A DNA stretch of 64,000 nt. Source: Mycobacterium sp. DL592. GTDB lineage: Bacteria > Actinomycetota > Actinomycetes > Mycobacteriales > Mycobacteriaceae. How positions within the stretch are numbered: position 1 is the first letter of the stretch; every line of letters starts with the position of its first letter. The position numbers and the translations under genes are program-made. Positions 10,223-48,902 of this stretch are shown here, piece after piece. The notes under the pieces were generated by a model. That model did not search any database. It saw nothing but the letters and a program-made list of their open reading frames with translations, and had not been told where the DNA came from. The stretch lies in contig NZ_CP050192.1 of the NCBI RefSeq assembly GCF_011694515.1, positions 4,844,527-4,908,526 of the forward strand. Reading direction: 5' to 3'.

Positions 10223-12049
10223 TCAGTCCGCTTCGGCCAGACGCTGCTTGAGCGCCTCGAACTCGTCCTTCACGCCGGTCGGCAGCTTCTCGCCGATGAA
10301 CTCGAACCACTCCTCGATTTGCGGGAGCTCGTCGCGCCACTCGGCGGCGTTGACCTTCAGTGCGTCGAGGACGTCGGCGTCCTCGACGTCCAGGCCGGAC
10401 AGGTCGAGATCCTCGACCCGCGGCACGGTGCCGATCGGCGTGGATACGCCGTTGGCCTTGCCTTCGACGCGCTCGACGATCCACTTCAGCACGCGGCTGT
10501 TCTCACCGAAGCCCGGCCACAGGAAGCGGCCGTCATCACCACGGCGGAACCAGTTGACGAAGAAGATCTTCGGCATCTTGGACTCGTCGGCGTTCTTGCC
10601 CAGGTCCAGCCAGTGCTGGCAGTAGTCGCCGGCGTTGTAGCCCAGGAACGGCAGCATCGCCATCGGGTCGCGCCGGATCGCACCCACCTTGCCCTCGGCG
10701 GCGGCGGTCTGCTCGCTGCCCAGGGTGGCGCCGATGAACACACCGTGCTGCCAGTCGCGGGCCTGGGTCACCAGCGGCACCGTCGTCTTGCGGCGGCCGC
10801 CGAAGAGGATCGCCGAGATCGGCACGCCCTGCGGGTCGTCCCATTCCGGAGCCAGCGTGGGGCACTGCGACATCGGCGTGCAGTAACGGGAGTTCGGGTG
10901 GGCCGCCGGGGTGCCGGACTCCGGCGTCCAGTCGTGGCCCTTCCAGTCGACCAGGTGCTGCGGGTCTCCTTCGAGGCCCTCCCACCAGACGCCGCCCTCG
11001 TCGGTCATCGCGACGTTGGTGAACACCGTGTTGCCCGCGGCGATGGTCTTCATCGCGTTCGGGTTGGAACTCCAGTTGGTTCCGGGCGCGACCCCGAAGA
11101 AGCCGAACTCCGGGTTCACGGCGTAGAGCTGGCCGTCCTTGCCGAACCGCATCCAGGCGATGTCGTCACCGAGGGTCTCAGCACGCCAGCCGGGGATGGT
11201 CGGCTGCAGCATCGCCAGGTTGGTCTTGCCGCACGCCGACGGGAAGGCCGCCGCGATGTAGTACGCCTTGTTCTCCGGGGAGATCAGCTTGAGGATCAGC
11301 ATGTGCTCGGCGAGCCAGCCCTCGTCGCGCGCCATCACCGAGGCGATGCGCAGCGAGTAGCACTTCTTCCCGAGCAGCGCGTTGCCGCCGTAACCCGAGC
11401 CGTAGCTCCAGATTTCGCGGGTCTCCGGGAAATGCGAGATGTACTTGGTGTCGTTGCACGGCCAGGGAACGTCGTCCTGCCCGTCCTCAAGGGGGGCGCC
11501 CAGCGAGTGCAGGGCCTTGACGAAGAACCCGTCGTCGCCCATCTTCTCCAGGGCCGCCTTGCCCATGCGGGTCATGGTGCGCATCGAGACGACGACGTAC
11601 TCGGAGTCGGTGATCTCCACGCCGAGCTTCGGGTCGTCGGCACCCAGCGGACCCATGCAGAACGGGACGACATACATGGTGCGGCCGCGCATGCACCCGC
11701 GGTACAGCTCGGTCATGAGCGACCGCATCTCGGCGGGGGCCATCCAGTTGTTGGTCGGCCCGGCGTCGACCTCACGCTCGGAGCAGATGAAGGTGCGGGA
11801 CTCGACGCGCGCGACGTCGGAGGGCTCCGAGCGTGCCAGGTACGAGCTCGGCTCCTCGGAATCGCTCAGCGGAATGAAGGTGCCGGCGGCCACCAGCTGT
11901 TGGGCCAGCCGCTGGTATTCCTCCTCGGATCCGTCGGCGAAGACTACCCGGTCGGGCTGTGTCAGCTCAGCGACTTCCTGTACCCAGGCCAGCAGGCCCT
12001 GATGCTTGGTCGGTGCCGTGTCCAGACCGGGAATGGTCGCTGAAGTCAT
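10223..12049 (-). CDS. pckG: Phosphoenolpyruvate carboxykinase, GTP type
   Basis: A 608-residue enzyme with full-length similarity to GTP-dependent PEP carboxykinases: [18 protein letters not shown] with substrate-binding residues, the P-loop [13 protein letters not shown] containing the hyper-reactive Cys, and the guanine-binding stretch [20 protein letters not shown]. It converts oxaloacetate and GTP to PEP, CO2 and GDP, the entry to gluconeogenesis, and in mycobacteria supports growth on fatty acids. M. tuberculosis calls the orthologue pckA. ATG 12049 has an AGGAG site 7 bases before it. A palindrome lies about 90 bp upstream and a strong terminator follows the stop. It is probably monocistronic. 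Confidence 0.97.
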
Positions 12050-16198: not shown

Positions 16199-19129
16199 GT
16201 GTTCGCCTGGTGGGGTCGAACTGTGTATCGCTACCGATACATCGTGATCGCAGTCATGGTCGCGCTGTGCCTCGGCGGCGGCATCTACGGTGCCAGCCTC
16301 GGCAAGCACGTCACACAGAGTGGTTTCTACGACGAGGGCAGTCAGTCGGTCAAGGCGTCGCTGATCGCCGACGCCGCCTACGGCCGGGACACCTCCGGCC
16401 ACATCATCGCGATCTACACCGCACCGGACGGCAAGACCGTCGACGACCCGGCGTTCAAGAAGAAGATCCTGGACAACCTCGCCCAGGTCGAGAAGGACCA
16501 TCCCGACGAGATCCTGCGGTCGATCGGCTACTTCAAGAGCCCCGAGCTGCTGTCCAACATGGCCGACGCGGACAAGAAGCACGCGTTCATGTCGATCCAG
16601 CTCAAGGGCAATGACGACGACACCATCCTGAACAACTTCAAGAAGGTCGACAAGGACTTCTTCATCGACGGTGTCAACGTCAAGCTGGCCGGCCTGCAAC
16701 CACTGGCCGCTGAGCTGACCGGAACCATCGGCGAGGACCAGCAGCGCGCCGAGGTGGCCGCCATCCCGCTGGTCGCGGTGCTGCTCTTCTTCGTCTTCGG
16801 CGGCGTGATCGCCGCCAGCCTTCCCGCGATCATCGGCGGTCTGTCCATCCTGGGCGCCCTGGGCATCGTGCGGTTGACCGCCCTGGTCACCCCCGTGCAC
16901 TTCTTCGCCCAGCCCGTCGTCACGCTGATCGGCCTGGGTATCGCGATCGACTACGGGTTGTTCATCGTCAGCCGATTCCGGGAGGAACTCGCCGAAGGCT
17001 ACGACACCGAGACGGCGATCCGGCGCACGATGATGACGTCGGGCCGCACGGTGGTGTTCTCCGCGGTGATCATCGTGGCGTCGTCGCTGCCGCTGTTGCT
17101 GTTCCCGCAGGGCTTCCTCAAGTCCATCACCTACGCGATCATCGCCTCGGTGATGCTGGCGGCGATCCTGTCGATCACCGTCCTGGCTGCCATTCTGGCC
17201 ATCCTCGGTCCCAACGTCGACGCCCTCGGTGTGCGCACTCTGCTGCGGGTGCCGTTCCTGCGCAACTGGACCTTCTCGCGCCGGATCATCGACTGGTTCG
17301 CGGAGAAGACGCAGAAGACCAAGACGCGCGAAGAGGTCGAGAACGGCTTCTGGGGCAAGCTCGTCAACCGGGTGATGAAGCGGCCGATTCTGTTCGCCGC
17401 CCCGATCGTCATCTTCATGATCGTGCTGATCATCCCGCTGGGGAAGCTGGCTCTCGGCGGCATCAGCGAGAAGTACCTGCCGCCGGACAACTCGGTGCGC
17501 CAGGCCCAGGAGGAGTTCGACAAGATCTTCCCCGGCTTCCGCACCGAGCCGATCACGCTGGTGATGAAGGGCAACAACGGTCAGCCCGTCACCGATCAGC
17601 AGGTCGCCGAGGTTCGCAACAAAGCCATGTCGGTCAGTGGTTTCACCGACCCGGACAACAATCCCGACGCCATGTGGAAGGAACGCTCCTACCTCGACGG
17701 CGCCTCCAAGGACCCGTCCGTGCGGGTGATCCAGAACGGCCTGGTCAATCGAACTGACGCGGGTAAGAAGATCATCGAGTTGCGGTCGATCGCCCCACCG
17801 AAGGGCGTATCGGTGTACGTCGGCGGCACGCCCGCGCTGGAGCAGGACAGTATCCACAGCCTGTTCGACAAACTTCCGCTGATGGTCGTGCTGCTCATCA
17901 CCACGACGACGATCCTGATGTTCCTGGCCTTCGGGTCGCTGGTGCTGCCCATCAAGGCGGCGCTCATGAGCGCGCTGACCCTTGGTTCCACGATGGGCGT
18001 GCTGACCTGGATGTTCGTCGACGGGCACGGGGCCGGCCTGATGAACTACACGCCACAACCGTTGTTCGCGCCGATGATCGGTCTGATCATCGCGGTGATC
18101 TACGGGCTGTCCACCGACTACGAAGTGTTCCTGGTGTCCCGCATGGTGGAGGCCCGAGAACGCGGGATGTCCACCACCGAGGCCATCCGGATCGGCACCG
18201 CAACCACCGGCCGGCTCATCACGGCCGCGGCCTTGGTGCTGGCCGTGGTGGCGGGCGCGTTCGTGTTCTCCGACCTGGTGATGATGAAGTATCTGGCCTT
18301 CGGTCTGCTGATCGCGTTGCTGCTCGACGCGACGATCGTCCGCATGTTCCTGGTGCCGGCCATCATGAAGCTGCTCGGCGACGACTGCTGGTGGGCGCCG
18401 CGCTGGATGAAGCGACTGCAGGTCAAGATCGGTCTCGGCGAGACGCACCTGCCCGACGAGCGCAAGCGTCCGGTCGTCCGCGAGCCCGCCGAGGCACTGG
18501 TCGGGGCCGGTGCGACCGCCGCACCCGAACCGCGCACCCGCCCGGCCCCCGATCCCACGCACCCGGGAGGCCGAGCGGCCCCCCGCGCGGTGGGCCGCGG
18601 CGAGTACCCGCCTGCTCCCGCGCCGCACGACGCACCGTCGGCGGCGGGTACCGCCCGCCTGGCCGACCCGCAGGGCGTGCCGGCCAACGACGCACCGACC
18701 ACCCGGTTCACAGTGGCCAAGAACGCGGTGCGCAACGCGGTGAACAATGCCGCGGCGGCCGCCCGATCGAGCCGTCCCGACCAGCCCCCCGCCCCGGATC
18801 GCGAGATCGAGTCGTGGCTCGGCGAGCTGCGCGGCAAGACCCCGCCCGCATCGCCGCCGCAGCCGTCGGCCGAACCGACCCATGCGATGGCCGCCCCGGA
18901 GGATGCGACCACGGCCATTCCGAAGCCGCCTGCCGCCACCGACGACGTCCCGCCTGCGCTCTCAGCGGAGGAAACCCGTGCGATCCCGATCAGCCGCCCC
19001 GAGTCGGGCGACTCCGAGGTGGCCACCGAGAAACTCAACGCCCGCGGCCAGAAAGAGGGCGAAGACCGTCCGCGCCGCGGTGGCGGAGTCAGCGCGGCCG
19101 ACCTGCTGCGCCGGGAGGGCAGGCTCTAG
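16199..19129 (+). CDS. mmpL3: MmpL3, trehalose monomycolate transporter (RND family)
   Basis: 976 residues from GTG 16199, with AGGAG 8 bases upstream. Two 6-helix halves each begin with one helix and a periplasmic domain. The proton-relay Asp-Tyr pairs are D251-Y252 (GLGIAIDYGLFIVSRF) and D640-Y641 (GLSTDYEVFLVSR). The last 220 residues form a disordered Pro/Ala-rich cytoplasmic tail with charged repeats. MmpL3 moves trehalose monomycolate across the inner membrane using proton-motive force and is essential in mycobacteria; it has also been implicated with MmpL11 and Rv0203 in haem uptake, and both of those genes lie about 10-15 kb away here. It ends in a short convergent gap with the AI-2E permease gene. 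Confidence 0.96.
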   Translation: MFAWWGRTVYRYRYIVIAVMVALCLGGGIYGASLGKHVTQSGFYDEGSQSVKASLIADAAYGRDTSGHIIAIYTAPDGKTVDDPAFKKKILDNLAQVEKDHPDEILRSIGYFKSPELLSNMADADKKHAFMSIQLKGNDDDTILNNFKKVDKDFFIDGVNVKLAGLQPLAAELTGTIGEDQQRAEVAAIPLVAVLLFFVFGGVIAASLPAIIGGLSILGALGIVRLTALVTPVHFFAQPVVTLIGLGIAIDYGLFIVSRFREELAEGYDTETAIRRTMMTSGRTVVFSAVIIVASSLPLLLFPQGFLKSITYAIIASVMLAAILSITVLAAILAILGPNVDALGVRTLLRVPFLRNWTFSRRIIDWFAEKTQKTKTREEVENGFWGKLVNRVMKRPILFAAPIVIFMIVLIIPLGKLALGGISEKYLPPDNSVRQAQEEFDKIFPGFRTEPITLVMKGNNGQPVTDQQVAEVRNKAMSVSGFTDPDNNPDAMWKERSYLDGASKDPSVRVIQNGLVNRTDAGKKIIELRSIAPPKGVSVYVGGTPALEQDSIHSLFDKLPLMVVLLITTTTILMFLAFGSLVLPIKAALMSALTLGSTMGVLTWMFVDGHGAGLMNYTPQPLFAPMIGLIIAVIYGLSTDYEVFLVSRMVEARERGMSTTEAIRIGTATTGRLITAAALVLAVVAGAFVFSDLVMMKYLAFGLLIALLLDATIVRMFLVPAIMKLLGDDCWWAPRWMKRLQVKIGLGETHLPDERKRPVVREPAEALVGAGATAAPEPRTRPAPDPTHPGGRAAPRAVGRGEYPPAPAPHDAPSAAGTARLADPQGVPANDAPTTRFTVAKNAVRNAVNNAAAAARSSRPDQPPAPDREIESWLGELRGKTPPASPPQPSAEPTHAMAAPEDATTAIPKPPAATDDVPPALSAEETRAIPISRPESGDSEVATEKLNARGQKEGEDRPRRGGGVSAADLLRREGRL

Positions 19130-30182: not shown

Positions 30183-33131
30183 ATGATGCGCCTGAGCAGC
30201 TACCTGCGCAGATTCCGCTGGCTGGTCTTCGCAGGCTGGTTGCTGGCCCTCGTTCCGGCCATCTACCTGGCGCTCACTCAGTCTCACCAGCTCACCGGCG
30301 GCGGCTTCGACGTCGACGGGTCGCAGTCGCTGCACGTGCAGTACCAACTCGAGGACCACTTCCCCGATCAGGGGGCATCCCCTCTGGCCATGGTCGCCGC
30401 ACCGCGCGCCGACGCCTCCTACGAGGACATGAACAAGGCGGTGGCCCAGCTCGAGGCGGCCGCCAAGCAGGTGCCGAGCGTGTCGGTGGTGCCCAACCCG
30501 GCGCAGCCCGCACCCGCCCCGGACCGCCCCTACGTCGTGTCGCTGCGACTGGACTTCAACAACACCGGCGCCGTCGACGTCTCCCGACAGCTGCGCCAGA
30601 AGATCGGCGTCCGGGGTGACCAGCCCGGCCAGACCGAGAACAGTCGGGTGCGCCTCTACGTCATCGGGCAGGGCGCGCTCGGCGCTGCCGCCCAGACCAC
30701 CACCAAGCACGACATCGCCGCCGCCGAGCGCTGGAACCTTCCGATCGTTCTGATTGTTTTGCTCGCGGTGTTCGGGTCGCTGGCAGCGGCCGCCATCCCG
30801 CTGGTGCTGGGCCTGTTCACCGTGGTGATCACGATGGGGGTGGTCTACGCCCTGTCGACGATCATGTCGATGTCGGTGTTCGTCACCTCGACGGTATCGA
30901 TGTTCGGCATCGCGCTGGCGGTGGACTATTCGCTGTTCATCCTGATGCGGTTCCGGGAGGAACTGCGCGCTGGGCGCGACCCCCAGCAGGCGGCCGATGC
31001 GGCCATGGCGACCTCCGGCCTGGCGGTGGTGCTGTCCGGCCTGACCGTCATCGCCTCCCTGACGGGCATCTATCTCATCGACACGCCGATTCTGCGGTCG
31101 ATGGCCACCGGAGCGATCCTGGCGGTCGCGGTGGCGGTGCTGACGTCGACCACGCTGATCCCGGCGGTGCTGGCGACGTTCGGCCGTTCGGCGGCCAAAC
31201 GCTCGCCGCTGCTGCAGTGGTCGCGTCGCGCGGACGCCACCCAGTCGCGGTTCTGGACCCGCTGGGTCGGTGAGGTGATGCGCCGTCCGTGGCTGTCGGC
31301 GATGTCGGCGACGGTGGTGCTGCTACTGATGGCCGCCCCGGCGTTCTCGATGGTGCTCGGCAACAGCATGCAGCGGCAGTTCCCGTCGTCACACGAGATC
31401 CGCGGCGGTGTCGCCGCGGCTGCCCAAGCGCTCGGGCCCGGCGCCCTGGGTCCGGTGCGGGTGCTGGCGGAGTTCTCCGGCGGCGGCGCCTCGGATCCCA
31501 AGAACGCCGCGGCGCTGGAGGGCATCAGCAGCGAGATGGGCAAGGCGCCCAACATCGTCTCGGTGTCACCGCCGGTGTTCGCCGACGATAACCGCAGCGC
31601 GTTGATGTCGGCGGTGCTCTCGGTGGACCCCGAGGACCTGGCCGCCCGCACAACCGTCGACTGGATGCGCGCCAACCTGCCGAGGGTGCCTGCCGCGGCC
31701 GGCGTGAAGATCGACGTCGGCGGCCCCACCGCGCTGATCAAAGACTTCGACGACCAGGTGTCGCAGAAACAGCCGCTGGTCCTGGTCTTCGTCGCGCTGA
31801 TCGCCTTCGTCATGCTGCTGATTGCCATCAGGTCGGTGTTCCTGGCGCTCAAGGGCGTGCTGATGACGGTGCTGTCCGTCGCGGCCGCCTACGGCAGCCT
31901 GGTGATGGTGTTCCAGTGGGGCTGGCTGGAAGGCCTGGGCTTCGAGCAGATCACGTCGATCGACAGCACGATCCCGCCGCTGGTGCTGGCCATGACCTTC
32001 GGCTTGTCGATGGACTACGAGATCTTCCTGCTCACCCGCATCAGGGAGCGGTACCTGCAGACCGGCGACACCCGCGATTCGGTCGCCTACGGCGTGGCCA
32101 CCAGTGCGCGCACCATCACCTCCGCGGCGCTGATCATGATCGCGGTCTTCATCGGGTTCGCGTTCGCGGGCATGCCACTGGTGGCCCAGATGGGCGTGGC
32201 GTGTGCGGTCGCGATAGCCGTCGACGCCACCGTGGTCCGGCTGATCCTGGTGCCCGCGCTGATGGCGATGTTCGACCAGTGGAACTGGTGGCTGCCGGGA
32301 TGGCTGGCCCGCATCCTGCCGTCGGTCGACTTCGAGAAGCCGCTGCCGAAAGTCGACCTCGGTGATCTGGTCGTCATCCCTGACGACATCTCGTCGCTGA
32401 TGCCGCCGACGGCGGATTTGAAGATGGTGGTCAAGGACGCGGCCCGGCTCAAGGACCTGGCCCCCGACGCCGTCAGCGTCGCCGATCCGATGGCGTTCAC
32501 CGGGTGCGGAAAGCTCGGCGCCCTGGCCGGGAGTGTGCGTGGCAGCGATGATGCCACCCGGCCCTTGCCCCAGCGAATTCCGGCGGGCGGAACCACCACC
32601 GTCGAACGTAAACCGATCCGGTCCTACCTGGGCGCCAGGACGTCGGCCCCGCGCCCGGTGCACCCGGTCACGATGTGGCGCGGCCGGTTGGCCATCGCGC
32701 TGGAGGCGCTGGAGACCGAGAGCGACGTCACCCTCGCCGGTGTCGAGCGGCTCAGCCCCGTGGAGACCACCAACGTGCAGCTTCCCACCGGCGACCGGCT
32801 GCAGATTCCGACCTGCGCGGAGACACTGCGACTGCAGGCGTTCCTGATCCTGTGCCGCAACAACCACGCGGACTACGCCGACTTCGCCGGACTGGTCGAT
32901 GTGATGGATTACCAGACCGCTGCGGTGGTACTCGGCGGAATGGACCGGTATTACTGTTCACAGCGAACTGAGCAACAATGGATCGCAACCCAGTTGGTGC
33001 GCAGGCTAGCCGACCCCACCCCGTCGGACGACGACGAGCGTTGGGCGGGTGCGGAGGGCCGCGCTGAATGGGAGACGATCAGGCAACGTTGCCTTTCGGT
33101 GGCAGTGGCGATCCTGGAGGAGGCGAGGTGA
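30183..33131 (+). CDS. mmpL11: MmpL11, RND-family lipid transporter
   Basis: 982 residues with two 6-helix halves and periplasmic loops. The proton-relay Asp-Tyr pairs are in FGIALAVDYSLFILMRF and FGLSMDYEIFLLTR. A soluble C-terminal domain of about 270 residues follows the last helix. In M. tuberculosis MmpL11 exports mycolate-containing lipids and has been tied to haem uptake together with Rv0203. ATG 30183 (ATG 30186 next) has only a distant GGGGAG, so the start is approximate. The stop overlaps the next gene as GTGA. Divergent from the two haem-carrier genes. Confidence 0.94.
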   Translation: MMRLSSYLRRFRWLVFAGWLLALVPAIYLALTQSHQLTGGGFDVDGSQSLHVQYQLEDHFPDQGASPLAMVAAPRADASYEDMNKAVAQLEAAAKQVPSVSVVPNPAQPAPAPDRPYVVSLRLDFNNTGAVDVSRQLRQKIGVRGDQPGQTENSRVRLYVIGQGALGAAAQTTTKHDIAAAERWNLPIVLIVLLAVFGSLAAAAIPLVLGLFTVVITMGVVYALSTIMSMSVFVTSTVSMFGIALAVDYSLFILMRFREELRAGRDPQQAADAAMATSGLAVVLSGLTVIASLTGIYLIDTPILRSMATGAILAVAVAVLTSTTLIPAVLATFGRSAAKRSPLLQWSRRADATQSRFWTRWVGEVMRRPWLSAMSATVVLLLMAAPAFSMVLGNSMQRQFPSSHEIRGGVAAAAQALGPGALGPVRVLAEFSGGGASDPKNAAALEGISSEMGKAPNIVSVSPPVFADDNRSALMSAVLSVDPEDLAARTTVDWMRANLPRVPAAAGVKIDVGGPTALIKDFDDQVSQKQPLVLVFVALIAFVMLLIAIRSVFLALKGVLMTVLSVAAAYGSLVMVFQWGWLEGLGFEQITSIDSTIPPLVLAMTFGLSMDYEIFLLTRIRERYLQTGDTRDSVAYGVATSARTITSAALIMIAVFIGFAFAGMPLVAQMGVACAVAIAVDATVVRLILVPALMAMFDQWNWWLPGWLARILPSVDFEKPLPKVDLGDLVVIPDDISSLMPPTADLKMVVKDAARLKDLAPDAVSVADPMAFTGCGKLGALAGSVRGSDDATRPLPQRIPAGGTTTVERKPIRSYLGARTSAPRPVHPVTMWRGRLAIALEALETESDVTLAGVERLSPVETTNVQLPTGDRLQIPTCAETLRLQAFLILCRNNHADYADFAGLVDVMDYQTAAVVLGGMDRYYCSQRTEQQWIATQLVRRLADPTPSDDDERWAGAEGRAEWETIRQRCLSVAVAILEEAR

Positions 33132-42201: not shown

Positions 42202-43455
42202 TTACTTTTCGCTGGTGACCGGGCTAACTGCGAACAGGTCCCGGCTGAGGGTCACCGCGACCAGTGCAGCCAGGATCAGCGCGGCCGAGGCGGTCACGGT
42301 GGCCGCGATGCCGCCGGTTTGGTAGACCACCCCGCCCGCCAGGGATCCGGCCATGATCCCGACCTGGAAGGAAGTCACGTACAGCCCCGAGGCGCCGTCG
42401 GGGTCCTGCGGGCTGTGCCGCATGGCCGCGGACTGCAGCATCGGTGGCATCGCCGTCGCCGCTGCACCCCAGAGCACGATCGCCGCGACCCCGGTCAGCA
42501 CGGTCACGGTGTTGCGTCCGTCGCCGAACCCGAGAACGGCGAGGACGGCGAAGGCCACCGTCAGAGCCACCAGGCAACCGAGAACGGCGGTCTTCGGTCG
42601 GCGATCGCCGGGTCGGGCCAGCAGCGCCATGGCGGTGAGGCCGGCGATGCCGTAGGCGGCCAGCAGCCAGGCCAGGTGCGGCCCGCGCACGCCGACCACG
42701 TCCCGGATGATCGCGACGATGAAGGTGTAGGAGATGAAGTGAGCGGTGACGCCGACGAGGGTCAACGCGCTCAGCACCACCAGTCGGCTGTTGCGGTGGT
42801 GGCGGATCGCCGCGGCGCTGGCCGGATGCCCTTCCGCCATCGCCATCAGCGGCAGCGCCAGCCGGGCCGCCGCCGCCACTGCCACCGCGGCGACGGTGAT
42901 GACGCCGACGGCTGTCCGCCAGCCCCACAACTCGCTCATCGCCGCCGTTACCGGGCTGCCCACGACGAGCGCGAGGCCGGTGCCGACGTACACGGCCATG
43001 GTGGCGCGCCCGGCGTAGCTCGCCGGCACCAGCCGGACCCCGATCGGGGCGATGACCGACCACATCAGTCCGTGGGTGAGCGCGCACAGGATCCGGCCGG
43101 CGGCCAGCACCGCGAAGGTGGGGGCCAGCGCCGAGATCAGTTGCGAGAGCACCAGGGAGGCCAGGGTGAACAGCAGTGTGCGCCGCCGGGGCCACGCCGC
43201 GGTCCAGCGCACCAGGGGCACGGTCGCGATGGCGGCCACCAACGCATAGCTGGCCAGCAGGGTGCCGACCATGGCCTCGCTGACCTTCAGGTCGCGGGCG
43301 ATGGCGGACAGTGCCCCCACGGGCATGATCTCGGCGGTGACGTAGACGAACGCCGCGGCGGCCAGCACTGCCAGGGCCACCGTGACGCGGGGCGTCCACG
43401 GGGTGGTCTGCGGTGGTGGCGAGGCACCCGTTGTGACGCCCGTGCGGTCGGGCAT
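42202..43455 (-). CDS. MFS transporter (Rv0191-like)
   Basis: 417 residues from ATG 43455 (GTG 43464 possible), 12 helices, with TAEIMPVGALSAIARDLKVS and a helix 2-3 loop RWTAAWPRRRTLL as in DHA1 efflux proteins; AGRILCALTHGLMWSVIAP and SGLYVTSFQVGIMAGSLAGG also fit arabinose/chloramphenicol-type exporters. It follows the TetR gene on the same strand after about 100 bp, so TetR may control it. In M. tuberculosis Rv0191 adjoins ricR; here the rhodopsin genes lie between. Confidence 0.88.
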   Translation of the reverse strand: MPDRTGVTTGASPPPQTTPWTPRVTVALAVLAAAAFVYVTAEIMPVGALSAIARDLKVSEAMVGTLLASYALVAAIATVPLVRWTAAWPRRRTLLFTLASLVLSQLISALAPTFAVLAAGRILCALTHGLMWSVIAPIGVRLVPASYAGRATMAVYVGTGLALVVGSPVTAAMSELWGWRTAVGVITVAAVAVAAAARLALPLMAMAEGHPASAAAIRHHRNSRLVVLSALTLVGVTAHFISYTFIVAIIRDVVGVRGPHLAWLLAAYGIAGLTAMALLARPGDRRPKTAVLGCLVALTVAFAVLAVLGFGDGRNTVTVLTGVAAIVLWGAAATAMPPMLQSAAMRHSPQDPDGASGLYVTSFQVGIMAGSLAGGVVYQTGGIAATVTASAALILAALVAVTLSRDLFAVSPVTSEK

Positions 43456-43556
43456 CGAGGGCACGGCATCACGGTATCGGCCGCAGCGATGCCAGGGCAC
43501 CCTTGGAGACCGGTTCGATGCGGTGCTGAGAGGCTGCCGATACGACTTGGCCGCGG

Positions 43557-44123
43557 TCAGCCCTCGCCCGGCGGGCCGGCCACGTCCACGCCCTTGAGGA
43601 CGATGCCGACCGCCGCCTCAATGACGTCGTCGTCGGGCACTGCACCGAACATCAGCGACGGGCAGGCAACCACACCGGCGAGCATCGAGATCGCCGCTTC
43701 GAGGTCGGGTCCGTGGAAGGCACGCTCGAGAAGCGCGCGGATCGGCCGCTGCCCCTCGGTATTCACTCGGTCCCTGATCTGCTCCATCGCCTCGACAGTC
43801 GACCATTGGGCGAGCGCGAAGATCACCCGGTCCAGGCGCAGCTCCACGATCGCCTGCCGGAAGACCTTCAGTTCGCCGATCAAGTCAGCGCGCAGGTCAC
43901 CGGTGGGCTCGTGATGCGGCAGGTCGCCGAGGGCTTCCATGGCGGTCGCGAACAGATCGGCCCTCGACGGCCAGTGCGCGTACAGCGTGGTCTTGGAGTA
44001 GCGGGCGATCCCGGCGATCCGGGCGTGGGTGAGCGCGTCGGGCCCTTCCCTGGTCAGGAGGTCGAGTGCGGTGCGTGCCACGTCAGCACGCGTGCGGATG
44101 ACCCGCGCATCCTCGCCCACCAC
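43557..44123 (-). CDS. TetR-family regulator
   Basis: 188 residues from GTG 44123 with GGGGAGG upstream. The helix-turn-helix is THARIAGIARYSKTTLYAHW; the C-terminal domain is the usual helical ligand pocket. It is divergent from the rhodopsin gene and in line with the Rv0191-like pump. The shared gap contains a 7-bp inverted repeat over the predicted rhodopsin -35 box, so it could repress itself, the pump, and possibly the rhodopsin operon. The ligand is not known. Confidence 0.9.
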   Translation of the reverse strand: MVGEDARVIRTRADVARTALDLLTREGPDALTHARIAGIARYSKTTLYAHWPSRADLFATAMEALGDLPHHEPTGDLRADLIGELKVFRQAIVELRLDRVIFALAQWSTVEAMEQIRDRVNTEGQRPIRALLERAFHGPDLEAAISMLAGVVACPSLMFGAVPDDDVIEAAVGIVLKGVDVAGPPGEG

Positions 44124-44198
44124 GAACGCCTCCCCTTCCTGCCGGGTGTCTGGTCAACCGAGCTGTTCGGACACACGAAACCAGCGGCCGAAAAGATT

Positions 44199-44253
44199 GT
44201 CCAATTCTGTAATAACTTTCCACTATTGGACGGATAGTTCATTACCGTACATT
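44199..44253 (+). promoter_or_regulatory. Predicted rhodopsin promoter with inverted repeat
   Basis: GTCCAAT (44199-44205) and ATTGGAC (44225-44231) are perfect inverted arms 19 bp apart. The right arm contains TTGGAC (44226-44231), which with TACATT (44248-44253) at 16-bp spacing makes a plausible -35/-10 pair about 35 bp before the rhodopsin ATG. The region is markedly AT-richer than its surroundings. Placement over the -35 suggests repression, TetR being the nearest candidate. Confidence 0.5.
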
Positions 44254-44290
44254 CCTTCCTGTAAGCCTCGCATCACAGTGAAGGTGAGAA

Positions 44291-45166
44291 ATGATTCCTG
44301 AAACACTGACCCAGGCCCAGTTCGACACGGTCTACAACATCTTGTCCCTGACGCTGGCCGCGCAACTGTTCGGCGCGATCTTCCTCTTCGTCGTCCAACC
44401 GCGGGTGCTCCCCCGCTATCGCCAGGCCCTGGTGATCTCCGCGATCGTGTGCGGCATCGCCGCCTACCACTATTTCCGCATTTTCGAATCGTTCAAGGCA
44501 GCGTTCGTCACGGAGGCGGCCGGTGGCCGCGGCACCTACGTGCAGGCCGCGGGCGACTCGTTCAACGAGGGATACCGCTACGTCGACTGGCTGCTGACGG
44601 TGCCCCTGCTGCTCACCGAGCTCATCGTGGTTCTGGCACTGGCCCGCAAGCTGCGCAACTCGCTGCTGTGGCGGCTCATCCCGGCGTCGGCCGCGATGAT
44701 CGCTCTGGGCTATCCGGGAGAGATCAGCGGCGACAACACCATTCGCAATGTCTTCGGTTTGTTGTCGACGATTCCGTTCCTCTACATCCTTTATGTGCTG
44801 TTCGTCGAGCTCACCCGGTCGCTGGATCGCCAGCCCCCCGCGGTGCGCCAGACCGTCAGCCGGATGCGGATCCTGTTGCTGGCCACCTGGGGCGTGTATC
44901 CGATCGCCTACATCATCCCGCTGTACTTCAGCCATGCCGGAGCCGACGCTTGGGTCTCCAAGCAGGTCGGCTACTCGGTGGCCGACATCCTGGCCAAGGT
45001 GCTCTACGGCCTGCTGATCTACAGGATCGCGCGGCTGAAGTCGTTCGCCGACGACCCGGCGTTCTCTGCGCAGGAGAACGAACATGCCGAGCACGGCGTT
45101 GCGACCCCGTCGAACGGCAAGCCGAAAGTCGTTGCCGGACATAAAGAACCGACAACGACGGCTTAG
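44291..45166 (+). CDS. Light-driven proton-pump rhodopsin (xanthorhodopsin/actinorhodopsin type)
   Basis: 291 residues, seven helices plus a hydrophilic tail of about 40 residues. Helix C reads RYVDWLLTVPLLLTELIVVL: R96, counter-ion D99, T103 and proton donor E110, the full Asp-Thr-Glu pump motif. H60 in helix B matches the His that pairs with the counter-ion in proteorhodopsin. L107 sits at the tuning position where Leu means green absorption. Helix F has W200, Y203 and P204; helix G has D232 and the retinal Schiff-base K236. Helix E has G156 where bacteriorhodopsin has a Trp, as in xanthorhodopsin. It should pump protons outward in light, provided retinal is made. AAGGTGA precedes ATG 44291. 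Confidence 0.95.
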   Translation: MIPETLTQAQFDTVYNILSLTLAAQLFGAIFLFVVQPRVLPRYRQALVISAIVCGIAAYHYFRIFESFKAAFVTEAAGGRGTYVQAAGDSFNEGYRYVDWLLTVPLLLTELIVVLALARKLRNSLLWRLIPASAAMIALGYPGEISGDNTIRNVFGLLSTIPFLYILYVLFVELTRSLDRQPPAVRQTVSRMRILLLATWGVYPIAYIIPLYFSHAGADAWVSKQVGYSVADILAKVLYGLLIYRIARLKSFADDPAFSAQENEHAEHGVATPSNGKPKVVAGHKEPTTTA

Positions 45167-45181
45167 GTCCGGCCGACTCAG

Positions 45182-46204
45182 ATGACCATCGTCGCACGCC
45201 GGCCCCGTGTGCGATGGTGGCGCGGAGGCGGGAGCCCCCCGGGAGCGAACCTCCCGGGGGGCTTCGTGCCGGGTGCGGACCGACACACCCTGGAGGCGGC
45301 CGCGACCTGGTCGCGCAGACTGGCCCTGGCCGCAGCCGCGTCCTGGCTTCCGGTTGACACTGCGCCGCTCGTACTCGGCATCGCCGCAGTGGGTTTCGCT
45401 GCAGGAATCCCGCATGGCGCCATCGATCATCTGACCGCGACCCGACTGACCGGCCGCACCTCGGTCGCGACGGCGGCCGTCGTCTACGCCGCACTAGCGG
45501 TCACCGCGTGGGCACTGATGACGTGGCTCGGCACGGCCGGCCTACTGGTCGCAGTCGCACTCAGCGCACTCCATTTCGGCCTCGGCGAACTCGAAGTATC
45601 CCGCCAGCTCACCGGATGGCGTCCCAATCTTCCTGTCGCCGTGGCGATTACGGTCGCCGGATGCGGAGCGCTGATCCTGCCCCTGGCCCGCGCCGGTGAC
45701 CAGCTCACCGGCGTGGCTGCCGCGGTCTCACCCGGAATCGACGTCTGGCTCGGCTCGGCTTGGCTACCGACCGCCCTGGTTGTCAGTTGGCTTGCCGCCG
45801 CCGCTGTCGCGGTGACCGGCGCCTTTCGGGCAGGTCGGCCTTTAGTCGCCGTCGACATCGTGTTGATCGGCCTTCTCGGCGCACTGGCACCGCCGCTGCT
45901 GGCGTTCGCCGTGTGGTTCGGCGGCTGGCATGCACTTCGGCATTGCGCCCGCATGCTGACCGTCGAACCCGGCTGTGCGCAGTTGGTGGCGGTCGGACTG
46001 CGCAGGGCGGCGGTCGCGCGCTTCGCCCGGCTGGCCGCCTGGCCGTCGGTGGCCGCATTCTCGGCGGTCGCGATCCTTGGGTGGTTCACCCTGATGGCGC
46101 ATGATCCCGCGGGGTTGGTGGCCGAGGTGTTGCGGGTACTGCTGGCTCTGACCGCGCCCCACATGGCGGTGGTGGCGTGGCTCGACCGCATGACGGGCCG
46201 CTAG
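45182..46204 (+). CDS. blh: Brp/Blh-type beta-carotene 15,15'-dioxygenase (retinal synthesis)
   Basis: Up to 340 residues from ATG 45182; GTG 45266, four bases after a GGGGGG run, gives a more typical 312. Multi-helix membrane enzyme with the family's metal-binding motifs: AGIPHGAIDHL, SALHFGLGELE, GGWHALRHC and ALTAPHMAVVAWLD. Members cut beta-carotene at its centre to two retinals. Its place 15 bp after the rhodopsin stop gives opsin and chromophore from one locus. No carotenoid synthesis genes lie in the window, so beta-carotene must come from elsewhere in the genome. It ends 30 bp from the convergent ricR gene. Confidence 0.93.
   Translation: MTIVARRPRVRWWRGGGSPPGANLPGGFVPGADRHTLEAAATWSRRLALAAAASWLPVDTAPLVLGIAAVGFAAGIPHGAIDHLTATRLTGRTSVATAAVVYAALAVTAWALMTWLGTAGLLVAVALSALHFGLGELEVSRQLTGWRPNLPVAVAITVAGCGALILPLARAGDQLTGVAAAVSPGIDVWLGSAWLPTALVVSWLAAAAVAVTGAFRAGRPLVAVDIVLIGLLGALAPPLLAFAVWFGGWHALRHCARMLTVEPGCAQLVAVGLRRAAVARFARLAAWPSVAAFSAVAILGWFTLMAHDPAGLVAEVLRVLLALTAPHMAVVAWLDRMTGR
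45233..45263 (+). terminator. 13-bp perfect GC hairpin between rhodopsin and blh
   Basis: AGCCCCCCGGGAG (45233-45245) and CTCCCGGGGGGCT (45251-45263) pair perfectly around CGAAC. No U-run follows, so it is either an actinobacterial U-less terminator/attenuator of the rhodopsin message or a structure that hides the GGGGGG ribosome site of the GTG start at 45266. It falls inside the longest blh reading frame, which argues that the true blh start is downstream. Confidence 0.7.
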
Positions 46205-46234: not shown

Positions 46235-46525
46235 TCAGGACCGGACCAGCCGGGCGATGGCGGCCGAGGCCTCGGCCAGCTTCTTCTCGCCTTCCTCGCC
46301 GCCCTCGGCGACGGCGTGGCTGACGCAGTGGTTGAGGTGTTCGTCGAGCAGTCCCAGTGCCACCGACTGCAACGCACTGTTGACGGCACTGATCTGGGTC
46401 AGGATGTCGATGCAGTACTTGTCCTCGTCGATCATCTTCGCGATCCCGCGAACCTGGCCCTCGATGCGGCGCAGCCGCTTGGCATAACCGTCCTTGTCGG
46501 CCGAATAGCCCGGTGCGCCAGTCAT
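46235..46525 (-). CDS. ricR: Copper-sensing repressor RicR (CsoR family)
   Basis: 96 residues. The Cu(I) ligands C38, H63 and C67 match the CsoR C-H-C set, within KRLRRIEGQVRGIAKMI and SALQSVALGLLDEHLNHC. CsoR-type proteins are four-helix repressors that leave DNA when they bind Cu(I). Adjacency to ilvD matches Rv0190 (RicR), which controls its own promoter and a copper-defence regulon in M. tuberculosis. It starts directly after the DUF305 stop (TAA then ATG), and a matching operator lies upstream of that gene. Confidence 0.92.
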   Translation of the reverse strand: MTGAPGYSADKDGYAKRLRRIEGQVRGIAKMIDEDKYCIDILTQISAVNSALQSVALGLLDEHLNHCVSHAVAEGGEEGEKKLAEASAAIARLVRS

Positions 46526-47125
46526 TTACCCTCCCAGCATCTTCTTCATCTGGTCGATCTCAGCCTGTTGTGCGGTGACGATGTTCTGGGCCATCGTGAT
46601 CATGTCGGGGCTCTTGCCTGCGGCGACCTCGCCCCCGGCCATCGCGATGGCGCCCTGATGGTGGCTGATCATCGACTGCAGCCATAACGTATCGAATTCC
46701 TGGCCCTTCAGTGTGCCGAGCTTGGCCATCGTGGCGTCGTCGACCATGCCGTCCATCGGCATGTCGCTGTGATCGGCTGCCGCGTTGGGGCTGATGTCCC
46801 ACTGCACGAGCAGCGCCTTCATCGCGTTGATCTCGGGTTGCTGTTCACCGGAGATGGTGGCGGCCAGTTTGACCAACTCAGGATTGGTGGAGCGGTCGGG
46901 CACCATTGCGGCCAGCTGCACGGCCTGCTGGTGATGGGGAATCATCATCTGGGCGAACATGACGTCGTGGTCGTTGTGAACGGCGACCTGGTCGCTGGCG
47001 GCGGTGGCTGCGGCGCTGGTGGAGGTGTGCTCGCTGTGGTTCTCCGCCTTGCTACAGGAGGCGACGGCGACGACGGCGGCTATGGCGGCGATACCCGCGG
47101 CGATGCGGGTGCTGGTGGACCTCAT
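46526..47125 (-). CDS. DUF305 lipoprotein, probably copper-related
   Basis: 199 residues from ATG 47125. A signal peptide with lipobox VASC (cysteine at about residue 24) is followed by a His-rich stretch (ENHSEHTS) and a DUF305 domain with MFAQMMIPHHQQAV, SDMPMDGM and WLQSMISHHQGAIAMA. The many His and Met residues are what a Cu(I)/Cu(II) binder needs. It is the first gene of the RicR transcript and lies right behind the RicR operator, so it should be induced by copper. Its exact job, storage or sequestration outside the membrane, is inference. Confidence 0.88.
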   Translation of the reverse strand: MRSTSTRIAAGIAAIAAVVAVASCSKAENHSEHTSTSAAATAASDQVAVHNDHDVMFAQMMIPHHQQAVQLAAMVPDRSTNPELVKLAATISGEQQPEINAMKALLVQWDISPNAAADHSDMPMDGMVDDATMAKLGTLKGQEFDTLWLQSMISHHQGAIAMAGGEVAAGKSPDMITMAQNIVTAQQAEIDQMKKMLGG

Positions 47126-47142
47126 GCAGCCCACCGTACCCG

Positions 47143-47159
47143 ATACCCTCCAGGGGTAT
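47143..47159. promoter_or_regulatory. RicR-type copper operator
   Basis: ATACCC-TCCAG-GGGTAT is a perfect 6-bp inverted repeat with a 5-bp centre, the form known for RicR/CsoR sites. It lies 17 bp before the DUF305-ricR start and 45 bp before the divergent ilvD start. Autoregulation of DUF305-ricR is very likely; an effect on ilvD is possible. Confidence 0.88.
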
Positions 47160-47204
47160 TGGAAAGGATTTTGCCACCACCCCTCACCACGGCATACTTG
47201 ACCG

Positions 47205-48902
47205 GTGAGCCAAACGCCTGATCTCAAGCCCCGCAGCCGCGACGTCACCGACGGACTGGAGAAGGCCGCGGCGCGCGGCATGCTCCGTGCGGTAGGCATG
47301 GGCGACGAGGACTTCGCCAAACCCCAGATCGGTGTGGCGTCGTCGTGGAACGAGATCACCCCGTGCAACCTCTCGCTGCAACGACTCGCCCAGGCGGTCA
47401 AGGAAGGCGTCTTCGAGGCCGGCGGCTACCCCCTGGAGTTCGGCACCATCTCGGTGTCCGACGGCATCTCGATGGGCCATGAGGGCATGCACTTCTCGCT
47501 GGTGTCCCGCGAGGTCATCGCCGACAGCGTGGAGACCGTCATGATGGCCGAGCGCCTCGACGGCTCGGTGCTGCTCGCCGGATGCGACAAGTCGCTGCCC
47601 GGCATGCTGATGGCCGCCGCGCGACTGGACCTGGCCGCGGTCTTCCTCTACGCCGGCTCGATCCTGCCGGGGCGGGCCAAGCTCTCCGACGGCACCGAGA
47701 TGGACGTGACGATCATCGACGCGTTCGAAGCCGTTGGTGCGTGTGCGCGTGGCCTGATGCCGCGGGAGGACGTCGACGCCATCGAGCGCGCCATCTGTCC
47801 GGGCGAGGGCGCCTGCGGCGGCATGTACACCGCCAACACGATGGCCAGCGCGGCCGAGGCGCTGGGCATGTCGCTGCCGGGCAGCGCAGCTCCGCCGGCC
47901 ACCGACCGCCGCCGCGACGGGTACGCCCGGGCCAGTGGGCGTGCCGTCATCGAGTTGCTGCGCCGCGGCATCACCGCCCGCGACATCCTGACCAAGGAGG
48001 CGTTCGACAACGCGATCGCCGTGGTGATGGCGTTCGGCGGTTCCACCAACGCGGTGCTGCACCTGCTGGCGATCGCCCACGAAGCAGGAGTGAAGCTGTC
48101 GTTGGAGGACTTCACCCGGATCGGCGCCAAGGTGCCGCACCTGGCCGACGTCAAACCGTTCGGCAAGCACGTGATGTTCGACGTCGACCGCATCGGCGGT
48201 GTGCCCGTGGTGATGAAGGCACTGCTGGATGCCGGTCTGCTGCACGGTGATGCGCTGACGGTCACCGGCAAGACCATGGCCGAGAACCTCGCTCACATCG
48301 ACCCGCCGGATCCCGACGGCAAGGTGCTGCGCGCGCTGAGTCACCCGATCCACCCGACCGGCGGCATCACGATCCTGCACGGCTCGCTGGCGCCGGAGGG
48401 CGCGGTGGTCAAGTCCGCCGGGTTCGACTCTGACGTGTTCGAAGGCACCGCAAGGGTTTTCGACGGGGAACGCGCCGCCATGGATGCCCTCGAGGACGGC
48501 ACCATCACCGCGGGTGACGTGGTGGTGATTCGCTACGAGGGGCCTAAGGGCGGGCCCGGTATGCGCGAGATGCTGGCGATCACCGGCGCCATCAAGGGCG
48601 CCGGCCTGGGCAAAGACGTGCTGCTGCTGACCGACGGCCGCTTCTCCGGAGGGACCACCGGACTGTGCGTCGGGCACGTGGCGCCCGAGGCGGTCGACGC
48701 CGGCCCGATCGCGTTCGTCAAAGACGGTGACCGGATCCGGCTCGATGTGGGTAACTCGACGTTGGACGTGCTGGTCGATCCGGCCGAATTCGATGCCCGC
48801 CGAGCGGGATTCACTCCCCCGCCGCCGCGCTACACCACCGGGGTGCTGGCCAAGTACCGCAAACTGGTCGGTTCGGCGGCCGGCGGAGCGGTCTGCGGCT
48901 AG
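47205..48902 (+). CDS. ilvD: Dihydroxy-acid dehydratase
   Basis: 565 residues from GTG 47205. Iron-sulfur cysteines are seen in [11 protein letters not shown] and [32 protein letters not shown] and [23 protein letters not shown] are strong family signatures. It makes 2-oxo acids for valine, leucine and isoleucine synthesis. The Fe-S cluster of such enzymes is a known copper target, which may be why it sits beside ricR. The stop overlaps the convergent gene by 3 bp. Confidence 0.97.

Follow-up and report, generated by a model that had tools for sequence, protein, structure and literature searches.

When would a heterotrophic mycobacterium make a light-driven pump, and to what purpose? The question arises from a 64,000-nucleotide stretch of the chromosome of Mycobacterium sp. 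DL592 (NZ_CP050192.1, positions 4,844,527 to 4,908,526; the window below), in which a rhodopsin gene is followed by a gene for a predicted retinal-making enzyme. We found a TetR-family regulator gene divergent from the pair and a palindrome switch beside it; both are new relative to the preliminary description of this DNA, which had missed them. We consider it probable that the locus encodes a retinal-autonomous light pump under TetR repression, and that this pump belongs to a sunlight/energy regulon.

The rhodopsin gene (44291..45166, + strand, ATG start) encodes a 291-aa protein of the xanthorhodopsin/actinorhodopsin type, which matched Bac_rhodopsin (PF01036) with 144.5 bits against the Pfam cut-off of 24.6. 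This was the single PF01036 match in the whole genome (5.10 Mb, one contig, 99.99% complete). The preliminary description had placed this ORF and that of blh (45182..46204, + strand) exactly, in a chromosome that is indeed mycobacterial, and D99, T103, E110 and K236 all stand where it had put them, which supports its residue set for an outward pump. K236 is the Schiff-base lysine of the bacteriorhodopsin-like family, D99, T103 and E110 form the DTE motif of helix C, and H60 is the His paired with the acceptor Asp; the roles of the DTE residues and of the paired His are well established. H60 aligns with the His of the AGYHYF stretch of xanthorhodopsin, and G156 aligns with chain position 156 of 3ddl (a hand count from the alignment). 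A Gly at xanthorhodopsin position 156 leaves space for the antenna carotenoid; G156 provides this small residue, and antenna binding is a prediction only. The nearest solved sequences were 9hfk (283 bits) and Gloeobacter rhodopsin 6nwd (257 bits), followed by psXR, Kin4B8 and xanthorhodopsin 3ddl. Like the window protein, 3ddl, 6nwd, psXR (9wfa) and Kin4B8 (7ytb), all with E ≤ 3.3e-63 to it, have the DTE set, a His at the same place and Gly at xanthorhodopsin position 156, but they group together outside its actinobacterial set in a quick tree. Homology thus makes a strong case that the predicted function of the protein is light-driven outward proton pumping. The pump had also been said to power MmpL3 and MmpL11 encoded nearby; distance was the only ground for the tie to MmpL3, which lies at 16199-19129, ~25 kb from the rhodopsin gene. 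The second MmpL-type ORF (30183-33131) reaches no curated cut-off, so MmpL11 is a tentative name for it.

The blh ORF follows the rhodopsin ORF at a spacing of 15 bp and encodes a Brp/Blh-family beta-carotene 15,15'-dioxygenase of 340 aa (ATG start). Its identity as the partner enzyme was borne out by two profiles, each over its cut-off: BCD (PF15461; 115.9 bits, Pfam cut-off 28) and blh_monoox (TIGR03753; 115.1 bits, NCBIfam cut-off 95.25). The conserved histidines of Blh are metal ligands, and H78, H83, H131, H250, H254 and H327 were kept in 25/25 aligned rows (24 distinct), the H327 letter of the L011 row falling past the frame change of that locus. A lack of beta-carotene synthesis genes would have told against the first reading, and such genes were found in the genome: crtI (TIGR02734, 517.6 bits, cut-off 238.1), a phytoene-synthase-type gene (crtB; PF00494 at 231 bits, over the Pfam cut-off of 26) and a lycopene cyclase gene of the CrtL type (TIGR01790, 232.4 bits, cut-off 209.5) near 4998000, ~108 kb from the rhodopsin gene. 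A search of the genome for the heterodimeric CrtYc/d lycopene cyclase (TIGR03462) gave no match. The polyprenyl-diphosphate synthase, crtI and phytoene-synthase-type genes form one run around 1833100-1836800; the GGPP-synthase and phytoene-synthase calls lie below NCBIfam cut-offs, the former being based on weak matches and neighbourhood and the latter on Pfam. With crtI, crtB and a CrtL-type cyclase present, retinal could plausibly be made from the genome's own carotenoid route. On the 3' side of crtB (L112:10875-14145, C1:1836874-1840144) we also noted genes for a methyltransferase and for an FAD protein resembling HpnE and zeta-carotene desaturase, along with a weak Rieske-type match; together these may be an aromatic carotenoid branch.

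The novelty first attached to a mycobacterial rhodopsin did not hold. Das et al. (PMC4524478) published rhodopsin genes for M. chlorophenolicum, M. chubuense and M. rufum in 2015, and the suggested search for the pair, run on 396 genus genomes (an even draw from a larger group; 361 of good quality), gave the rhodopsin family in 32 (22 of the 361) and a BCD/Blh match in 21 (18 of the 361), all 21 among the 32 rhodopsin carriers. Rhodopsin as such is therefore not new, and its occurrence with a retinal gene in mycobacteria is already known. The accessible portions of the 2015 paper treat a proteorhodopsin gene, horizontal transfer and nearby tRNA genes; a TetR is absent from them, and no word starting "retinal" occurs in the paper's main text. 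M. chlorophenolicum L003 (83% identity) has the order tetR-rho-blh like the window. Besides the window, the genus gave 34 rhodopsin matches, 31 of which could be aligned with the window protein; 23 carry the same residue set (HDTEGK), 6 belong to a second type with DTG, and the remaining 2 are DTE variants of other kinds. The clade tree that had been proposed was also run, as a quick tree of 86 rows that left out short rows, rows identical over their first 200 letters and, among the far loci L048-L080, the even-numbered ones. The window joined two close relatives with support 98, next out came other mycobacterial rows and Williamsia, and then Pseudonocardia. It lay within the actinobacterial set (Microbacteriaceae, Pseudonocardia, Williamsia and freshwater lineages), among the mycobacterial rows and with Williamsia and Pseudonocardia next, and the xanthorhodopsin-type references fell outside this set; the deep placements are unsure because of a long-branch warning.

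The regulator gene (43557..44123, − strand) is separated from the rhodopsin gene by 167 bp and encodes a predicted repressor of the TetR family (TetR_N, PF00440, 33.3 bits, Pfam cut-off 24). Among the matches listed in literature searches, whose coverage lay mostly outside subscription journals, no paper dealt with this regulator. To this intergenic region we aligned others, giving 13 distinct sequences, some of them from named contigs outside the 396 genomes. The results showed one conserved block 5' of rho, consisting of a palindrome and then TAnnGTAC. In the window the 21-bp palindrome TAnTGRAC-N5-GTYCAnTA, the predicted operator, lies at 44224..44244 with 0 mismatches, 46 bp 5' of the rhodopsin start codon. 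The adjoining TAnnGT element (44243..44248, + strand) may serve as a −10 box (TANNNT type) of a promoter; it occurs in 13/13 regions, where the search pattern for the block itself demanded TAnnGT. The arm cells of the palindrome were complementary in 81/91 cases over the 13 regions, as against 46/91 for the best of 79 other placements, and the arms covary, with GGAC...GTCC in L091, L104 and L106, GAAC...GTTC in L003, L008 and L108, and mixed pairs in the rest. Around the operator lies an array with a spacing of 19 bp (44186..44263), whose copies begin at 44186 (5 mismatches), 44205 (4), 44224 (0) and 44243 (4). Adjacent palindromes overlap by one TA, and this common TA suggests that several TetR dimers may sit side by side along the array. 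On the protein side, TetR residues 42-52, presumed to be the recognition-helix region, are nearly invariant across all classes of homologue, position 49 excepted. C154 is kept in 73/73 aligned TetR rows (some of them duplicates) and is the sole cysteine of the aligned core in 63/73. This conservation makes a redox or adduct sensor possible, and as a guess from it C154 is a candidate sensing residue.

A protein search with this TetR (E 1e-10 or better) gave matches in 73 of the 396 genomes. Close homologues, 67 of them full-length, were found in 54 genomes at 58-100% identity; the remaining matches have ≤44% identity, except for one 59-residue piece at a contig end. We sorted 68 loci, namely all 67 close ones and the weak L217 (32%), by the divergent neighbour. 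A HAD gene with a mysA-like gene stood there in 39, rho in 13, qcrB in 11 and a TPR protein gene in 2, and none was recognised in 3 (L217 included). Sites within 2 mismatches of the palindrome occurred in 39/39 sunscreen (HAD and mysA-like) loci, 12/13 rho loci, 11/11 qcrB loci (all within 1 mismatch), 0/2 TPR loci and 2/3 unrecognised loci. The palindrome array is thus reused at three modules, 62/63 of whose TetR loci carry the site within 2 mismatches; the rho locus of G139 has the TetR and no such site. Elsewhere in those loci sites with ≤2 mismatches came to 1 in 500,917 positions. The pattern was derived from rho loci, which makes the qcrB and sunscreen loci a separate test of it, albeit one with homologous TetRs. 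The spacing was regular: 74/75 secondary sites (≤3 mismatches) lay exactly 19, 38 or 57 bp from the main site across the 63 loci. The array is a candidate binding site for the TetR. In the window's own genome, which has one exact operator and one TetR match, no wider regulon was seen, sites with ≤2 mismatches numbering 9 against 15 for a reversed control pattern.

In the sunscreen loci the mysA-like and ATP-grasp genes are present in 39/39 and an O-methyltransferase gene in 32/39, the other 7 giving no O-methyltransferase match in the locus stretch examined. The cyclase is of the DHQ-synthase type, and its best PDB match was 5tpr (555 bits, against 286 for 4p53), which we take to be desmethyl-4-deoxygadusol synthase; among PDB sequences no relative of the ATP-grasp protein was found. 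According to the available sections of the GATOR-GC preprint (PMC11888242), a DHQS-type cyclase, an O-methyltransferase and an ATP-grasp protein are the minimum set for mycosporine-like amino acids, HAD genes are noted in the Actinomycetota clusters for them, and mycosporine-type products are UV protectants. The TetR-linked loci have the same enzymes as those clusters; unlike them, the clusters come without a regulator or rhodopsin link in these sections. All 11 TetR-linked qcrB genes scored above the NF050120 cut-off and lie in genomes with 2 or 3 QcrB genes. Extra qcrB copies without this TetR occur in G024, G197 and G004; the window genome has one QcrB, its other match of just 22 bits not being counted. 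In a quick tree the TetRs of rho and qcrB loci were intermixed in one part and the sunscreen TetRs grouped separately, and five genomes (G054, G160, G255, G266, G342) have a rho-linked and a sunscreen-linked TetR together. In a further locus, L212 (G120:C16), which has 2-mismatch sites, the gene opposite a TetR homologue of 59% identity was judged by eye to encode an FAD-dependent oxidoreductase and is a possible further target.

Regulation of rhodopsin by TetR is not universal. Among the 24 HDTEGK loci of the genus, the window counted, the TetR is divergent to rhodopsin in 13, whose outer flanks vary, and a TetR match is absent beside rhodopsin in 11 (some loci being cut by contig ends); in G067, G159 and G334 the gene divergent to rhodopsin encodes a distant Blh (32-34%) instead. 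Nor did the exact 21-mer alone serve as a mark of the regulon. It occurs in 52/396 genus genomes, 27 of the 54 with a close TetR (≥58%) and 25 of the 342 others, and we rejected it because these 25 carry the exact match without a close TetR homologue. The array marks the regulon better: a partner (≤4 mismatches) at 19, 38 or 57 bp was present for 19/19 sites with the TetR beside them and for 2/31 sites without it, made distinct by merging 5 repeated entries, as counted over loci L241-L295, a part of the exact sites. The two are at the sunscreen operon of G260 and at a photolyase-related gene of G358. G260 has one TetR match, at qcrB and ~233 kb from the sunscreen operon. The G358 protein shares 79% identity with that of G120, a DPRP type by Pfam. 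These two array sites without an adjoining TetR make the strongest case for action at a distance. Photolyase as a general fourth target was rejected. Exact single sites lie 5' of a DPRP-type photolyase gene in G006, G120 and G228 (called by Pfam on the G120 and G006 proteins and by 90% identity for G228), and they are without the 19-bp array and have an extra ACAnnnTGT centre, so they may belong to another regulator. The same centre is common to other single sites, several of them between kshA-like and MFS genes. Only the G358 photolyase site (L262; 1 mismatch, a second at +38 with 2) fits the array, and the link of photolyase to the TetR array is weak. A separate single palindrome of the type TAGTGnACAnnnTGTnCAnTA was noted in L255, L260, L267, L268 and L269, between kshA-like Rieske and MFS genes, an assignment made by eye that is clear in L255, L260 and L268. 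In L260, L267, L268 and L269 another TetR gene lies close to it.

The rhodopsin pair may come and go behind the operator. In M. bohemicum (L011), the MAG maxbin.118 (L012) and M. helveticum (L013), rho, blh and qcrB form one run behind one operator, in the order hemH-inhA-fabG1-tetR (−) and rho-blh-qcrB (+), where hemH, inhA and fabG1 were identified by eye. The blh matches of M. bohemicum DSM 44277 are split over two frames (about 11089-11900), which either a broken gene or an error in the record could explain. The flanks of the locus in G260 match those of M. bohemicum, with the intervening stretch gone (L011 9985/11837 corresponding to L238 4719/4727), and 5' of the G260 qcrB is a remnant resembling the 3' end of blh (by eye). 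Given this remnant, the most likely history of G260 is a loss of rho-blh. The span between tetR and the TPR gene is ~4.8 kb shorter in G019 and G197 than in M. chlorophenolicum; these two loci keep no site within 2 mismatches, and their TetRs fall among the rho TetRs in the tree. A loss of rho-blh is probable in these genomes as well.

From the genes, their residues, the co-conserved TetR and the reused array we infer pumping, TetR-operator binding, repression and an inducing signal, which would fit together as follows. In the dark or at rest, TetR dimers along the 19-bp array over the promoter would repress the rho-blh transcript. A signal tied to sunlight or to respiratory energy loss would free the array from TetR, and rhodopsin and Blh would be made. 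Blh would cleave beta-carotene from the genome's crt genes to retinal, which would be bound at K236; with D99 as proton acceptor and E110 as proton donor in the pump cycle, light would then add proton-motive force. The TetR homologues and the same operator at the sunscreen genes and the second cytochrome b are what would make the pump one member of a regulon. The two-frame blh of M. bohemicum and the 25 genomes that have an exact 21-mer and lack a close TetR weigh against this reading. We hold a wider proposal more tentatively, a little short of an even chance: that in environmental mycobacteria paralogous TetRs on 19-bp arrays jointly control the pump with its retinal enzyme, a UV sunscreen, a second cytochrome b and one species' photolyase, rho-blh being gained and lost behind a shared operator. 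Should the TetR and the array prove to be as read here, one control element would tie together light energy capture, UV screening and a spare respiratory subunit. It would then offer a way to learn under which conditions heterotrophic mycobacteria produce a light-driven pump, and the purpose of mycobacterial rhodopsins would become a testable question.

The rival that survives best, though we rate it as somewhat unlikely, grants that the pump works and has the TetR sense respiratory or membrane stress, such as a fall in proton-motive force, and not light. The pump and the second QcrB would then be a backup for proton-motive force, and the sunscreen-type compound an antioxidant or solute. It draws on the three loci where rho-blh and qcrB share one operator and on the mixing of rho and qcrB TetRs, apart from the sunscreen TetRs, in the quick tree; a respiratory signal fits these rho-qcrB links about as well as a light signal does, and cytochrome b is not specific to light. 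The largest class (39 loci), however, is a mycosporine-type operon whose products are described as UV protectants in the available sections of PMC11888242, which favours a light signal, and the array site at the photolyase-related gene of G358 also speaks against stress sensing.

The TetR may instead act on no more than its own gene and the downstream MFS transporter gene (42202..43500, − strand), rhodopsin just sharing the intergenic region. The MFS gene does follow tetR in the same orientation in the window, and a TetR beside an efflux gene is a common layout. Of the loci searched, however, just three have an MFS gene beside tetR-rho, namely the window's and those of its closest relatives, G294 and G024. 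The MFS gene is therefore probably outside the conserved module, while tetR-rho recurs in 13 genomes with different flanks. The site, moreover, lies 46 bp 5' of rho and recurs 5' of qcrB and the sunscreen genes, and we regard this explanation as improbable. On the other side of rho-blh (window 46238-47401), a CsoR-type repressor gene (Trns_repr_metal) stands beside a DUF305 gene, an order shared with G294 and G024.

A photosensor role for the rhodopsin, in place of energy pumping, seems more doubtful still. Its full DTE set has a donor carboxylate, no transducer gene was noticed adjoining it, and its nearest solved relatives of known type are, we presume, pumps; in favour of a sensor, the accessible part of one report has a proton-pumping rhodopsin controlling gene expression via a transcription factor (PMC11217422). 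We give the least credence to a mobile relic without function in its host: the patchy distribution (32/396), the losses in G260, G019 and G197 and the two-frame blh of M. bohemicum would suit it, but both window genes are intact and have retained their motif residues and operator, and Blh is confined to rhodopsin-bearing genomes (21/21).

Other rhodopsins were noted in the course of these comparisons. A second type, with 28-30% identity where aligned, occurs in L082-L088 (G382, G346, G317, G390, G287, G126, G139), in genomes of 1.9-5.0 Mb; six aligned rows have D-T-G for D-T-E, so the donor carboxylate is absent. G126, G139 and G382 have two PF01036 matches each, the other copy being of the window type in G126 and G139. 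The rhodopsin of L138 (G055; 33% identity) has DTE, Ala at the His position and its own Blh-type gene adjoining. Among the public rhodopsin loci compared, a TetR beside rhodopsin was found only in mycobacterial records and in L016, a MAG record titled Bifidobacterium breve. L016 and a second record of that title, L005, carry mycobacterial-type rhodopsins (77-78% identity), and the two titles are probably wrong.
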